This document shows, in pieces, positions 24,338 through 45,672 of a stretch of DNA of 46,963 bases; position 1 is the first letter of the stretch, and each line of letters opens with the position of its first letter. Location: NCBI GenBank assembly GCA_903861005.1, contig CAIOSP010000170.1:1-46963 (forward strand). Direction: 5' to 3'. The DNA comes from an uncultured Pseudomonadota bacterium (lineage in GTDB: Bacteria; Myxococcota_A; UBA796; GCA-2862545). Under the pieces are notes generated by a model. The model did not search any database. It saw only the letters and a list, made by a program, of their open reading frames with translations, and was not told the origin of the DNA. Made by a program: the position numbers and the translations under genes.

Positions 24338-27259
24338 ATGAACGACCCTGGCCGCACCCGTCGCATCGCGACCTACACCACCCTGACCGCCGCCATCCTG
24401 GGATCGATCATCCTGCAGGCTGGCCCGTCCTTCGACCAGAAGGGCGGCAGCATTCACTTCTCCGAGTGGCGTCTGTGGAACTGGTACATCGAGGACGCCG
24501 CGATCAGCTTCGCCTACGCCCGCAACTGGGTGGAGGGCGCCGGTCTGGCCGCGTTCCGCGGCGGCGAGCGCATCGAAGGCTTCAGCAACCCCACGTGGGT
24601 CGGGCTGATGGCCATCTGGGAGCTGTTCGGCGTGGACGGCTTCACCAGCTCCAAGATCATGGCGCTGGTGCTGTCCTCGGTCACCATTGTGATGAGCTGG
24701 TTCATCGCGCGTGAGGTGATCGACGACGAGGACTCGTGGGCGCCGCTCATGGCCCCCGTCCTGCTCGCCTGCTTCCCGCAGTTCGCCTTCTGGAACGCGT
24801 CGGGCCTCGAGAACCCGCTCATCACCTTCCTGATGGCCGGCGCCTTCTGGCGCGCCATCGTCGAGGCCAAGCGGGGCGGCTACCCCTGGTCGGCGGCGTG
24901 GTTCACGCTGCTCGCCATGTCGCGCCCCGAGATGATCATGTACGCGGCGTGGGGCGGCTTCGCGTCGATGATCATGGCCTTCCGCAACGGGCAGGGCGTG
25001 AAGAGCACGGCGCAGTGGCTGTTCACGTTCTTCGTGCCGTTCAGCGTCTACCAGGCCGTGCGCTACGACTACTTCGCGTGGGCCTTCCCCAACACGTACT
25101 ACGCCAAGCTGGGCGACCAGGAGTTCAAGCCCTTCGCGTGGGAGTCGCGCGGCTGGAAGTACATCCGCGCCTGGGGCTGGGACACCGGCACCGGCTGGTT
25201 CACGCCGGTCATCCTGTCGGGCCTGATCGGCCTGCGCGGCCTGCGTCGCTGGGCCGTGCCGGTGGTCACGCTCGCGATGATCTTCCTGGTGATCTACCCG
25301 TCGAGCGAGATGACCTCGAAGATCGAGTGGTGGCCGAAGGATCTCCCTGCCCCGGATTGGTGGAAGGAGGCCCGCGTATGGGCCCTGCTCGGCACGGCGC
25401 TCGCCGCCATGGTCGCCGCCTTCCCGGACCGCCGCGCGTTTGGTCGCGTCCTGGCCTGGGGCAGCATCCTGATCACGTTCTTCTTCTGCGTCCGCGCGAA
25501 CGGCGACTGGATGAAGGGCTACCGCTGGATGAACTTTGTCTCCATCCCCGGCGTGCTGCTGCTCACCTGCGGCATCGAGGAGCTGGCGGCGCTCTTCCAG
25601 CGCACCTTCGGTCGGACGCGCGCGCCCGGCTGGTCCACCCCCGGCTGGGTCACGGCCACCGTGCTGACCCTCGGCGTGATGCCCGGCTGGTTTATCCACT
25701 CCGCGTGGTTCATCGGCAAGCGCGAGACCGGCCCTTACAGCGTCGAGAAGCGCGTCGACTACACCGAGTTCCTGATGACCAGGACCTGGGAGGTCGACAA
25801 GCTGGTGAAGAACTTCGACGTCGACATGGGCGCCCACCTGTGGTGGTCCAAGCACGAGATGGTCGACATGGCCGGCCTGGTCGACGTCTCGATCGCGCAC
25901 CACGACTACAAGCAGCGCGACTTCGTCGAAGAGTACATGTACAAGGAGCAGAAGGCGGAGATCGCGCACGTGCATGGCGGCTGGGCCAACACGTCGAAGA
26001 TCCCGACCTACCCCGAGTGGAAGCGCGACTACATCGGCATGCCCGCGTTCCCGATGAGCGCGCGCGTGGCGCACGTCGGCAACTTCATGCGCCGCGACGT
26101 GTTCATGTCGCCCACCTTTGCCGGCGCCCACGGCCGCGAGGTCGCGTTCGACCGCGGGATCGTCCTGTCGGGCTTTGACGTGCCCAGCCCCGAGATCAGC
26201 CCCGGCAAGGCCCTCTACATCGAGGTCAGCGCGTCGTACCGCGCCCTCGACGCCAAGGAGAACTTCCGCTTCCTGATGTTCCTGGCCGACCACGAGGGCC
26301 ACCTGCAGACCGTCGACATCCCCGTCGGCTACGACTGGCTCCCACCCACCGAGTGGCGCATGGGCGAGGTCTGGACCGGCAAGTTCGCGTTCGCGATCGA
26401 CAAGGCGCTGACCCCTGGCGACTACGATCTCGGCTTTGTGGCGATCGGCGCAGACGGCGCCGTGGTGCCGCTCGCCACGGCGCCCGCCGTGAAGGGCAGG
26501 CCGGGCGCGCGCCTGCCGCTGCCCGACGGCGTCACCGTCGGCGGCGACCCGGACGTCGCGCCCCGCTTCGCCCGCGGCGAGGTCGTGTTCCCGTCCGTCG
26601 TGAAGATCGGGGCGCCTGAGACCGGCGAGAAGGCCGCTCGCGCCGACGTCGACCGCGCCGCCGACAGCGCCCGCGCCGACCAGTGCGACGAGGCAGCCGC
26701 GTCGTGGCGCCTGGCACGCGCCCACATCCCCAACGCCACCAAGTGGCTCACCGACAAGCGCGCGCTGTTCGCGGTGCTTGAGGCCGAGTGCTACGCCCGC
26801 GCCGCGCTCGTCGCGGCCGAGAAGGACCCGGCCGACGCCGTGCCGCTGCTTGAGGCCGCACGTGTCTGGACCTGGAAGAACAACGCGCTGTTCGCCGCGC
26901 AGGCCGCGGTCGGCCAGCAGCTCTACGACCGCGGGATGAAGGCGCGCGAAGCGCAGGACTGGGAGAAGGCCTACCTCGCGTTCGACGGCGCCGTGCGCGC
27001 CAACCCGTCGCTGTCCTGGGCTCGCCGCTACGCCGAGGAGGCACGCGACCTGCGCCTGGGTCTCACCGGCCCTGAGTCCGCCGCGCCGGCGCCCGCCGCC
27101 ACGCCCAAGCCGCCGCGTCCGCCGCGCCCCGCCAACCCGGGCGTGAAGCCGCCCGAGGGCGCCGCTGAGGACCCGGTCTCGCCCGAAGGCGCGCCGAACA
27201 ACCCCAAGGCCGAGGCGCCCGCCCCCGAGGCGCCTGCCCCGGAAGGCGCGGAGCCCTGA
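24338..27259 (+). CDS. GT-C-like membrane protein with a large soluble C-terminal region
   Basis: 973 aa from ATG 24338. Residues ~40-75 match the first loop of GT-C glycosyltransferases: EDAAISFAYARNWVEGAGLA, then GGERIEGFSNPTWVGLMA; the acidic ED pair is the expected catalytic/metal site for polyprenyl-phosphate sugar donors. About ten membrane segments follow to residue ~470. Residues ~480-800 are soluble, with mixed strands. Residues ~760-905 are Ala-rich helices resembling TPR-like pairs (CDEAAASWRLARAHIP; EKAYLAFDGAVRANPSLSW). The last ~55 residues are a Pro/Ala/Glu-rich tail. Transfer of a sugar to an envelope glycan or protein is inferred. The thioredoxin/cytochrome gene begins one base after the stop. 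No good ribosome binding site is seen. Confidence 0.7.
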   Translation: MNDPGRTRRIATYTTLTAAILGSIILQAGPSFDQKGGSIHFSEWRLWNWYIEDAAISFAYARNWVEGAGLAAFRGGERIEGFSNPTWVGLMAIWELFGVDGFTSSKIMALVLSSVTIVMSWFIAREVIDDEDSWAPLMAPVLLACFPQFAFWNASGLENPLITFLMAGAFWRAIVEAKRGGYPWSAAWFTLLAMSRPEMIMYAAWGGFASMIMAFRNGQGVKSTAQWLFTFFVPFSVYQAVRYDYFAWAFPNTYYAKLGDQEFKPFAWESRGWKYIRAWGWDTGTGWFTPVILSGLIGLRGLRRWAVPVVTLAMIFLVIYPSSEMTSKIEWWPKDLPAPDWWKEARVWALLGTALAAMVAAFPDRRAFGRVLAWGSILITFFFCVRANGDWMKGYRWMNFVSIPGVLLLTCGIEELAALFQRTFGRTRAPGWSTPGWVTATVLTLGVMPGWFIHSAWFIGKRETGPYSVEKRVDYTEFLMTRTWEVDKLVKNFDVDMGAHLWWSKHEMVDMAGLVDVSIAHHDYKQRDFVEEYMYKEQKAEIAHVHGGWANTSKIPTYPEWKRDYIGMPAFPMSARVAHVGNFMRRDVFMSPTFAGAHGREVAFDRGIVLSGFDVPSPEISPGKALYIEVSASYRALDAKENFRFLMFLADHEGHLQTVDIPVGYDWLPPTEWRMGEVWTGKFAFAIDKALTPGDYDLGFVAIGADGAVVPLATAPAVKGRPGARLPLPDGVTVGGDPDVAPRFARGEVVFPSVVKIGAPETGEKAARADVDRAADSARADQCDEAAASWRLARAHIPNATKWLTDKRALFAVLEAECYARAALVAAEKDPADAVPLLEAARVWTWKNNALFAAQAAVGQQLYDRGMKAREAQDWEKAYLAFDGAVRANPSLSWARRYAEEARDLRLGLTGPESAAPAPAATPKPPRPPRPANPGVKPPEGAAEDPVSPEGAPNNPKAEAPAPEAPAPEGAEP

Positions 27260-27260
27260 C

Positions 27261-28673
27261 GTGAACACCCGCCGCGTCGCCGCACTGCTGCTCGTGCTCA
27301 CCGTGGCCTCCGCCGCGGTGGCCGCCGGTCTGGACGCGCGCGGTTGGCACACCGGCACGCCCGCCGCGAACGCGGTGCGGGTGCTGGGCCCAGTCGGCAC
27401 CGAGCCGATCGACGTGCCCTTCCCGGCCGACTTCATGGCCCGGCTCAAGCGCACCACGTTCGTGATCTACTTCTCGCCGACCTGCCCGCACTGCCAGCAC
27501 GTGGCGCCTGAGATCGCCCAGCTCGCCGCCCGCATCGGCGACCGGGTGGACGTGATCGGCGTGGCCCCCGGCGGCACCCCGCCCGACCAGATCCGCGCCT
27601 TCCGCAAGGTGTACGGCTGGACCTTCCCGGTGGTGGCCGACGCCGACCACAAGATCGTCTCGGCGATCGGCGCGCAGGGCACGCCGTCCGCGCTGCTCGT
27701 CACGCCGCTCAACGGCGCCGCCCGCCTGGTTGACCTGTGGTACCCCTACGCGCTCGGCTCCGGCACCCTGGTCGAGATGCGCGTCAGCGAGAACCCCTGG
27801 GCGCCGTTCGGGCCGGGCGAGTACCACGGCATCAAGACCTGCGGCGCCTGCCACGCGGCCGAGGCCGAGTCCTGGGCGCTCACCCACCACTCCATCGCGT
27901 GGCGCACGCTCGTCGACGACGGCAAGGACAAGGACCCGGCCTGCACCGGCTGCCACGTCACCGGCGCGGGCCAGCCCATGGGCTGGGACGGCACCGCCGC
28001 CACCGACCGCCTGACCGACGTGCAGTGTGAGGCGTGCCACGGGCCCGGTGGTCCGCACGACGGCGTGGTCACGGACCCCAAGACGCAGTGCGTGAACTGC
28101 CACGACGCCAAGCACAGCATCCACTTCTCCTACGAGAAGGGCCTGCCGCTGATCGACCACTACGCGGCGAGCGAGCTCGACGACGTCGGGTTTGACGCCG
28201 CGCGCCGCAAGCTGGTGTCGGGCGAGGCGCCGCGCGCGCTGCTTGCGTTTGGTGACGGCGCCTACGTCGGCGCCGCCGCCTGCCTGACCTGCCACGCCGA
28301 GGAGCACGCCCAGTGGGCCACGTCCGGGCACGGGCGCGCCATGGCCCCGCTCGCGGGCAAGCCGTCCGCGGAGGATGCGTCCTGCGTGCGCTGCCACGCC
28401 ACCCGCACCCAGGGCGGGCCGCCGTCGACCCACGTCTTCGACTACCGCGTGGACGAGGGCGTCGGCTGCGAGTCCTGCCACGGCCCCGGCGGCGCGCACG
28501 TGGCGGCCGGCGGCGGGAAGGACAACATCGTCGGCCTCGGCGAGTCTTGCCCCGTGTGTGTCATCGAGGCGGTGTGCACCAGCTGTCACACCAAGGACTG
28601 GAGCCCCGAGTGGGACGTGGACGTCGACCTGCCCAAGGTCGCCCACCGCCCGGTCACCGGCGCACACCCCTGA
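27261..28673 (+). CDS. Exported thioredoxin-fold / octahaem cytochrome c fusion
   Basis: 470 aa from GTG 27261. A signal peptide (residues 1-22) is followed by a TlpA/AhpC-like thioredoxin domain (~45-165) with active site CPHC (75-78) and GTPSALLV (cis-Pro loop). Residues ~190-445 bear eight CxxCH haem sites: CGACH 194, CTGCH 228, CEACH 256, CVNCH 277, CLTCH 341, CVRCH 375, CESCH 403 and CTSCH 439. They form two similar tetrahaem halves, each with a CE(A/S)CHGPGG site third, in the style of cytochrome c554-type proteins. An extra CPVC (430-433), not followed by His, could be a disulphide. The protein would act outside the inner membrane, perhaps moving electrons between a thiol partner and a haem chain (inferred). 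It is co-transcribed with the GT-C-like gene. Confidence 0.9.
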   Translation: MNTRRVAALLLVLTVASAAVAAGLDARGWHTGTPAANAVRVLGPVGTEPIDVPFPADFMARLKRTTFVIYFSPTCPHCQHVAPEIAQLAARIGDRVDVIGVAPGGTPPDQIRAFRKVYGWTFPVVADADHKIVSAIGAQGTPSALLVTPLNGAARLVDLWYPYALGSGTLVEMRVSENPWAPFGPGEYHGIKTCGACHAAEAESWALTHHSIAWRTLVDDGKDKDPACTGCHVTGAGQPMGWDGTAATDRLTDVQCEACHGPGGPHDGVVTDPKTQCVNCHDAKHSIHFSYEKGLPLIDHYAASELDDVGFDAARRKLVSGEAPRALLAFGDGAYVGAAACLTCHAEEHAQWATSGHGRAMAPLAGKPSAEDASCVRCHATRTQGGPPSTHVFDYRVDEGVGCESCHGPGGAHVAAGGGKDNIVGLGESCPVCVIEAVCTSCHTKDWSPEWDVDVDLPKVAHRPVTGAHP

Positions 28674-43704: not shown

Positions 43705-45672
43705 ATGGGTTCGCGTCGCGCCACGCTAGTCGGAGCCTGCCTGCTCGCTGCGGCGTGCGGGGCCGACGTGCGCCAGCCCGACCGGCCGCAGAGCAGCAAC
43801 GGCAGCAGCGCCTCAGATGTGCACGACCCGTTTGTGGCCGCGCCGCGCCTGTCCTTCGACCCAGCCCTCCGTCGGATGTCGGACACGGAGTACCGTCGGT
43901 CGGTGTTGGACCTGCTCGGTGTGCCGGTCCCCGCCACCGTCCAGCTCCCGCCGGACGCCGAGACGCGCGGCTTCACCAACCAGGCCGACGCGCTGGACGT
44001 CTCCGGGCTGTTGTTCGAGGGCTACGAGTCCGCCGCCGAGTCGGTGGTCGACGCGCTCCTACGGCATTCCCAGATCAACGTGATCGTCGACGCGCCCGTG
44101 ACCGAGGTCGCGGTGGTCGGCGGCCTCCCGGGGAACGTGTACGCGGCGAGCGTCGTGGCCCCCGCCATCGGGCGCTACCGCCTCGACCTCTGGATCCAGG
44201 GCACGGGCGCCGCCGAGAACGTGGGGCACGCCTTCACGCTGGCCATCGACGACGTGCCGATTGGCGAGCAGATCCTGACCGTCACCTCGACGCCGCAGTC
44301 CATCTCGTTCGAGGTCGAGCTGAGCCGAGGCCCGCACCGCCTGGACCTCGACGCGATGGTCGCGGGGAGCCGGCCGGTGGTGGACGTCAGCGCGGGTCCC
44401 GTGCTCGCCACCGGTCCGCTCGCGCTGGTGCCCAACCCCGCGCGCGACGCGGTCGTCACCTGCGATCTGGAGGGGTCGCCCTCCACCTGCGTCCACGAGG
44501 TGCTGGGGCGGCTGGCGCCGCGGGCGCTGCGGCGTCCGCTCCGTGCGGGCGAGCTCGATCGCCTGATGACGCTCCCCGACGGCCTCCTCGCCGACGGCCA
44601 GACGCCGGAGGCGGCGCTTGGCGCGGGCCTGCGACTCCTGCTGACGCACCCTGCGTTCCTCTACCGGGTCGAGCCCGACCAAGGCATCGCCGTGCGCCCC
44701 CTGGACGCCTGGGAGCTGGCGGCCCGCATGGCGGCGCTCGTGTGGGTGTCGCTCCCGGACGACGGACTCCGCGCGGCCGCCGAGTCGGGCGCGCTGGTGG
44801 ACGCCGAAGCGCGACGCGCCGAGCTCGCTCGCATGCTCGCCGATCCGCGCGCGTCGGCGCTCGCAGACGTGTTCGTCACGGACTGGCTCGACCTCGACCA
44901 CCTCGACCGCGCCACGCCCGACCCGTCCGTGTACCCGGGGTTCGACGAATCACTCCGGGGCGCGATGGCGGACGAGCTACACGCGCTGGCGTCAGGCCTG
45001 GTGGGCTCCGGCCGGAGCATGAACGAGCTGCTCACGGGCACCACCGGACAGGTCACGCCGCGGCTCGCCACTTGGTACGGGCTGCCCGAGGGCACCTCGG
45101 GTGTGGTCGACCTGACGTCGGTCGGACGCGGGGGCCTGCTGGGCACGGGCGGCGTGCTGACGCTCACGTCGAACCCGAATCGGAGCTCGCCGACGCGTCG
45201 CGGCAAGTTCATCCTCGACCGCCTGCTCTGCTCGCCGCCGAGCCCGCCCCCCGCCGGCGTGCCGGCGCTGCCTTCGTCGGGAGACCCGCGCGACCTCTTG
45301 GAGGCCCACGCGCACGACCCGCTCTGCGCGTCATGCCACGCGTCGATCGACCCGCTCGGCTTCGCGCTGGAGGCCTTTGACGGCGTCGGCGCGCGTCGAA
45401 CCGGTACGGTGTCGACCGAGGCGACGCTCCCCGATGGCACCGTCCTCCACGGACTCGCCGAGCTCTCGCGCTACGTGGTCGATGACCCGCGCTACCTGGA
45501 CTGCGTCGCGGAGTCCATGTTCATCTGGGGCATGGGCCGCGCCCCCGGCCAGGACGAGCCGACCGTGACAGGCATGGCGGACGCGATGCGAGCCCACGGC
45601 GGATCGCTCGACGCCGGCATCGAGGCGCTCGTGCTCTCCGACGCCTTCGCTCAGCACCGGTGGGGAAAATGA
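43705..45672 (+). CDS. DUF1592/DUF1588/DUF1585-type lipoprotein with a haem site
   Basis: 655 aa from ATG 43705, with GGGAGG at good spacing. A lipoprotein signal (MGSRRATLVGACLLAAACG; lipobox AAAC) starts the protein. The multi-domain planctomycete/myxobacterial family pattern follows: DUF1587-like (LRRMSDTEYRRSVLDLLGVP), a beta-rich region, DUF1595-like (APRALRRPLRAGELDRLMTL), DUF1592 (GAGLRLLLTHPAFLYRVEPD), DUF1588 with NPNRSSPTRRGKFILDRLLC, CASCHASIDPLGFALEAFDG (CxxCH) and DUF1585. The one CxxCH suggests a c-type haem. Function is unknown. It is followed by the DUF1552 gene, with which it is usually paired. Confidence 0.88.
   Translation: MGSRRATLVGACLLAAACGADVRQPDRPQSSNGSSASDVHDPFVAAPRLSFDPALRRMSDTEYRRSVLDLLGVPVPATVQLPPDAETRGFTNQADALDVSGLLFEGYESAAESVVDALLRHSQINVIVDAPVTEVAVVGGLPGNVYAASVVAPAIGRYRLDLWIQGTGAAENVGHAFTLAIDDVPIGEQILTVTSTPQSISFEVELSRGPHRLDLDAMVAGSRPVVDVSAGPVLATGPLALVPNPARDAVVTCDLEGSPSTCVHEVLGRLAPRALRRPLRAGELDRLMTLPDGLLADGQTPEAALGAGLRLLLTHPAFLYRVEPDQGIAVRPLDAWELAARMAALVWVSLPDDGLRAAAESGALVDAEARRAELARMLADPRASALADVFVTDWLDLDHLDRATPDPSVYPGFDESLRGAMADELHALASGLVGSGRSMNELLTGTTGQVTPRLATWYGLPEGTSGVVDLTSVGRGGLLGTGGVLTLTSNPNRSSPTRRGKFILDRLLCSPPSPPPAGVPALPSSGDPRDLLEAHAHDPLCASCHASIDPLGFALEAFDGVGARRTGTVSTEATLPDGTVLHGLAELSRYVVDDPRYLDCVAESMFIWGMGRAPGQDEPTVTGMADAMRAHGGSLDAGIEALVLSDAFAQHRWGK

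Follow-up and report, generated by a model that had tools for sequence, protein, structure and literature searches.

A thioredoxin-octahaem c-type cytochrome family with a conserved extra CxxC motif in its second tetrahaem module

In the window (the whole 46,963-nucleotide stretch of DNA analysed here), a single open frame encodes a 470-residue protein in which a thioredoxin domain is followed by two tetrahaem modules (Table 1). Residues 1-23 look like a Sec-like signal, and since no lipobox cysteine is present there, the protein reads as something other than a lipoprotein; it is probably exported. Translation confirms the original prediction that a CPHC motif at residues 75-78 is followed by eight CxxCH sites and that a haem-less CPVC lies between sites 7 and 8. 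The third site of each half also has the CE(A/S)CHGPGG form described earlier, as CEACHGPGG at site 3 and CESCHGPGG at site 7. All 20 cysteines of the protein fall within motifs: two in the thioredoxin site, 16 in haem sites and two in CPVC. When the protein was shuffled 20,000 times, CxxCH motifs occurred on average 0.04 times and at most 3 times, against the 8 observed. In a further 84 sequences, which are 28-53% identical, the motif cysteines are kept (Cys430 excepted in three), and this argues that the gene is real.

Table 1. Features of the thioredoxin-octahaem cytochrome gene and its upstream neighbour, in window positions
Feature	Position	Strand	Basis or remark
973-aa PMT_2-like protein, upstream neighbour	24338..27259	+	Ends one base before the GTG start of the gene; Pfam
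Thioredoxin-octahaem c-type cytochrome gene	27261..28673	+	470 aa; GTG start, stop included; translation, Pfam, 85-sequence alignment
Signal-peptide-like N-terminus, about residues 1-23, VNTRRVAALLLVLTVASAAVAAG	27261..27329	+	Sequence reading; predicted helix 2-22 (model)
ResA/CcmG/TlpA-like thioredoxin domain, residues 44-178	27390..27794	+	Pfam, model, fold search
Thioredoxin active site CPHC (75-78)	27483..27494	+	Both Cys in 85/85; dipeptide PH in 75/85
cis-Pro position of the thioredoxin fold, Pro142	27684..27686	+	Invariant, 85/85
First c554-type tetrahaem module, residues 184-306; haem sites C194, C228, C256, C277	27810..28178	+	
Second c554-type tetrahaem module, residues 331-464; haem sites C341, C375, C403, C439	28251..28652	+	
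Extra haem-less CPVC (430-433), insertion directly before haem site 8	28548..28559	+	Alignment

The possibility that the N-terminal region is unrelated to thioredoxin, raised with the original prediction, is not borne out. Pfam finds AhpC-TSA at 2e-10, and AhpC-TSA, Redoxin and thioredoxin models cover residues about 63-149. An AlphaFold2 model of the whole protein was built from the 85-sequence alignment (pLDDT 92, pTM 0.85), and in a fold search with this predicted model residues 44-178 match ResA with Z 15.9 (2.2 A over 126 residues) and CcmG with Z 15.4. The fold, the CxxC and the cis-Pro are thus common to all three; ResA differs in having CEPC in place of CPHC, and here the domain is joined to eight haem sites. 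Membership of the ResA family (NF002854) was rejected, at 23 bits against a curated cut-off of 170. A peroxiredoxin (AhpC/TSA) was rejected as well, because the active-site segment, FSPTCPHC, is a CxxC site and lacks the PxxxTxxC peroxidatic motif; judged from this segment, the AhpC-TSA match reflects a common fold. Among the 85 sequences the motif is CPHC in 75, CSHC in 5, CGHC in 4 and CSYC in 1. A histidine directly follows the active site (CPHCH) in 49 of the 85, none of them from the window's own class, so that the site resembles a ninth haem-attachment motif. These loci (L035-L045 and L072-L111) come from other classes of the phylum, and in the window protein the motif reads CPHCQ.

For the haem part, Pfam reports Cytochrome_C554 (PF13435) in two stretches (4e-22, 79.4 bits against a curated cut-off of 20.8). 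Because matches to the thioredoxin domain filled the list when the whole model was searched, the haem part was folded alone, both halves together (pLDDT 91). Half 1 then matches cytochrome c554 (1ft6) with Z 11.1 (3.7 A over 126 residues, 30% identity). The matches listed for half 2, folded along with half 1, are weaker, with the undecahaem 6qvm at Z 6.7 and OcwA at Z 6.5. Of the two kinds of fold originally proposed for comparison, c554 is therefore clearly recovered for half 1, while for the multihaem nitrite reductases NrfA is not among the matches listed; HAO appears at Z 2.3, and these two observations argue against neither fold.

Each half contains four CxxCH sites and three distal-type histidines at shared positions (H210/H357, H266/H413 and H300/H462). 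We aligned both halves with 21 single tetrahaem modules of the same phylum, which comprise UshA-like fusions and small tetrahaem proteins. The four CxxCH are common to all, as are the three histidines, the last with some exceptions. His285 is conserved in half 1 alone and has no counterpart in half 2 or in the 21 single modules. The candidate distal ligands are therefore H210, H266, H300 and H285 in the first module, and H357, H413 and H462 in the second. By elimination, not geometry, H285 could cap haem 2. In OcwA, the active site is the open haem 2, one of a group of four (haems 1-4) that superposes on c554 (PMC6703420); with three distal histidines in half 2, counting ligands suggests that this half may keep haem 6 (C375-H379) open, as in c554. 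All eight CxxCH sites would be loaded with haem, and Cytochrom_C_asm (cytochrome c assembly) genes lie at three places in the genome.

Across the 85 sequences, the invariant residues are C75, C78, P142, all haem cysteines and their histidines, C433, H210, H266, H357 and H413; close to invariant are C430 (82), H285 (84), H300 (83), H462 (81) and D448 (84). Position 448 (28602-28604), five residues past the last haem histidine, is Asp in those 84 and Ser in the window protein. In one UshA-like subfamily (L116, L120, L124, L125, L126), the C-terminal distal-type histidine gives way to a Ser-Cys end, e.g. YLPKASCQGG, which suggests a different ligand for one haem.

The original prediction also held that the two halves are similar and arose by internal duplication. 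The similarity is plain (BLASTP 3e-7; profile-profile E 1.4e-34). A recent tandem or internal duplication is unsupported, since in the module tree (unrooted and short) half 2 groups with UshA-like single modules (95/76), apart from half 1, and each half forms one clade (100/96 and 99/97). The halves are best read as c554-type modules that diverged long ago and do not form one group. The same genome also encodes a separate single tetrahaem protein with a UshA-like N-terminal region (L002:517-1902, G000 contig 64).

The key finding is that the extra CxxC is a specific, conserved feature of the thioredoxin-linked second module. Both of its cysteines are present in 82 of 85 sequences, and Cys433 in all 85, so that it is kept more strictly than Cys430. 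The dipeptide between them is DS in 45, PV in 19, PE in 14 and another in 7, counting in the three sequences that lack the first cysteine. In the alignment the insertion is confined to half 2 and is absent from half 1 and from the 21 single modules.

The taxonomic distribution of the fusion, a check proposed with the original prediction, reveals a conserved family: 117 of 379 genomes of the same phylum match at E <= 1e-45. In a set of 58 relatives, the gene occurs in members of five of the order's six families, and the large family f2 has single-module matches only. A profile of the haem part, run against the 239 genomes that are at least 90% complete, matched octahaem proteins over their full length 73 times (E <= 5e-78) and in part four times; below a gap, the matches to single modules begin at about 3e-34 and continue down. 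The thioredoxin site is present in every octahaem protein read, save one (L133), whose contig stops short of the thioredoxin region and which has the extra CxxC. Three proteins matched partly or not at all in the first search (L132, L134, L135) contain CPHC and the extra CxxC on reading. L134 lacks haem site 6 and L135 lacks haem sites 3 and 4, either through real deletions or through assembly errors. The gene is not universal among relatives: some near-complete ones, among them G003, which is in the same family, yielded no match.

Relatives outside the class of the window are mostly longer proteins, some of them with a lipobox. Of four long proteins scanned with Pfam, three (L035, L041 and L042) have a second AhpC-TSA stretch, which precedes the active domain and has no CxxC; L036 also shows two stretches. 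Matches on Halioglobus/Haliea contigs were set aside as different multihaem proteins, with a tetratricopeptide-like tail and mainly haem-motif segments in common. Among the plasmids searched there was no match. Selenocysteine was considered and dismissed: the flags for stops inside the plus-strand frames L011, L015 and L021 mark terminal stops, and no internal Sec was seen.

The surroundings of the gene suggest no function. The PMT_2-like gene is a conserved neighbour only in part of the same family; in some other classes, uracil-DNA-glycosylase-like and AroE-like genes (named from sequence reading) lie downstream. DnaK- and DnaJ-like genes, likewise read from sequence, are found directly upstream of long relatives at five loci (L035, L037, L040, L043, L044). 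Elsewhere in the window, positions 43705-45672 encode a 655-residue protein with a PSD2/PSD3/PSD4/PSD5/PSCyt3 domain set (DUF1585-DUF1595). Profile searches also found Ser/Thr kinase, PSD/PSCyt3 and WS/DGAT genes, a set from which we would guess at Myxococcota. As for thiol-redox background, VKOR is present in 58 of 58 relatives, whether or not they bear the fusion, DsbB in 4 and a DsbD_TM protein in 55. We therefore rejected the idea that the fusion replaces DsbB or VKOR. Among these 58 genomes, strong DsbD_TM matches (E about 1e-48) occur mainly in family f2, which lacks the fusion, in f3 and in part of f5; weak ones (E about 1e-20) occur in f1, f4 and f6, mostly fusion holders.

We propose, with a probability of roughly 0.45, that the protein is exported and carries electrons between thiol-disulphide couples and haems, with the extra CxxC as the relay from one domain to the other. 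Such a protein would link thiol-disulphide exchange, a two-electron process, to the one-electron steps of haem transfer. Through its CPHC, the ResA-like domain would exchange a disulphide both with client thiols and with the internal cysteine pair (CPVC, CDSC or CPEC). This pair, adjoining haem 8, would in turn give electrons to, or take them from, a wire of eight haems formed by the two c554-type modules, and the wire would connect to an external redox partner. CPHC is the oxidising motif of DsbA, and on that ground we guess that the direction from thiols to haems is the more likely one. The relay, its direction, the partner and the substrate are what we infer from the domains, motifs, conservation and CxxC restriction observed.

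Several results fit this relay. Throughout, the thioredoxin site is accompanied by another CxxC next to a haem, and the site itself has an invariant cysteine pair and cis-Pro in a domain with the fold of ResA and CcmG. The eight CxxCH are invariant, with three shared distal-type histidine positions per module, and the octahaem matches, with the thioredoxin site in those read, are set apart by a gap from single modules. The confident predictions (pLDDT 91-92) and the Cytochrom_C_asm genes lend further support. Above all, the extra cysteines are conserved, yet absent from half 1 and the 21 single modules, and conservation of this pair makes thiol-to-haem coupling more plausible. Other results count against the relay. 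The CPVC loop is modelled with lower confidence (residues 421-430, pLDDT 70), and the extra cysteine pair might form a structural disulphide. The neighbouring genes at the loci compared include no conserved functional partner. Finally, the spread of VKOR and DsbD_TM proteins leaves no obvious thiol-redox gap to be filled.

It is also conceivable, if rather unlikely, that the protein is an enzyme whose catalysis takes place at a haem and whose thiol domain is accessory. Haem 6 would then be a five-coordinate catalytic haem, as in c554 and OcwA, acting on a small nitrogen or sulphur oxide; Cys433 would lie near it, and the thioredoxin domain would keep this cysteine reduced or pass on a bound sulphur species. 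The ligand count speaks for this, as three distal-type histidines are found in half 2 and in single modules and the fourth, H285 (84 of 85), in half 1 alone; so do the open haem 2 of OcwA (PMC6703420) and the stricter conservation of Cys433 than of Cys430. The assignment of His285 to haem 2 was, however, made by elimination, and substrate-specific gene context is absent. L134, in which the haem 6 site is missing, still has both the extra CxxC and the thioredoxin site, and this counts mildly against the CxxC acting at haem 6; L134 comes from a single metagenome-type assembly, with a possible error.

The closest structural matches, ResA and CcmG, are classic apocytochrome reductants, and the domain might accordingly be a built-in maturation factor that keeps the CxxCH thiols of its own or other apocytochromes reduced, with the extra CxxC as a structural or assembly disulphide. 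We consider this unlikely: ResA and CcmG work in trans on all cytochromes, such a domain is missing from the other tetrahaem proteins of the phylum, the motif is CPHC and not the CEPC of ResA, and this reading does not explain why just one module has a CxxC insertion that is strictly conserved. An improbable alternative is a plain electron-transfer cytochrome, whose thioredoxin domain serves for docking only and whose CxxC is a structural disulphide. There is no direct evidence of catalysis, and in the long relatives the active domain is preceded by a degenerate thioredoxin-like one that lacks CxxC. A docking domain, however, would be expected to lose its catalytic cysteines and cis-Pro, as that N-terminal copy has, and they are invariant in all 85 sequences.

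Known extracytoplasmic thiol-disulphide systems are linked either to quinones (DsbB, VKOR) or to cytoplasmic thioredoxin (DsbD/CcdA). If the proposed relay is correct, protein or small-molecule thiols could be oxidised, or disulphides reduced, by extracytoplasmic electron transport without DsbB, VKOR or DsbD. Whether the family amounts to a widespread, undescribed class of exported transducers, with an internal CxxC relay wiring thiol-disulphide exchange directly to a chain of haems, is doubtful at present. About a third of the sampled genomes of the phylum carry it, so it is not a one-strain curiosity, and the fusion to a haem wire with a conserved extra cysteine pair offers a testable case for direct coupling between thiols and multihaem chains.

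Our searches of profile libraries, the PDB and the literature turned up no characterised member of the fusion, which answers the concern in the original prediction that this might be a known family. Each half resembles cytochrome c554 (CycA of Nitrosomonas europaea; PF13435) in being a c554-type tetrahaem module; here there are two in tandem, with a thioredoxin domain in front, a CxxC insertion in the second and His285 in the first. The protein is not a CycA equivalog (NF043010; 45.3 bits against 400 required). Its best NCBIfam match is the UshA-like (seleno)protein NF041198, which carries one tetrahaem module of the same type behind a UshA-like N-terminal region and lacks the extra CxxC; at 154.4 bits, from the tetrahaem part only, the match falls below the 275-bit cut-off, and membership was rejected. 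The UshA-like protein is listed among selenoprotein families (PMC13188914). The best PDB sequence match is OcwA, the nonahaem terminal reductase of Thermincola potens (6i5b), whose haems 1-4 form a c554-type core like the modules here (PMC6703420), but which has nine haems, an NrfA-type second part and no thioredoxin domain. The parts are thus of known kinds, and it is their combination that makes this an uncharacterised family, not a new fold.
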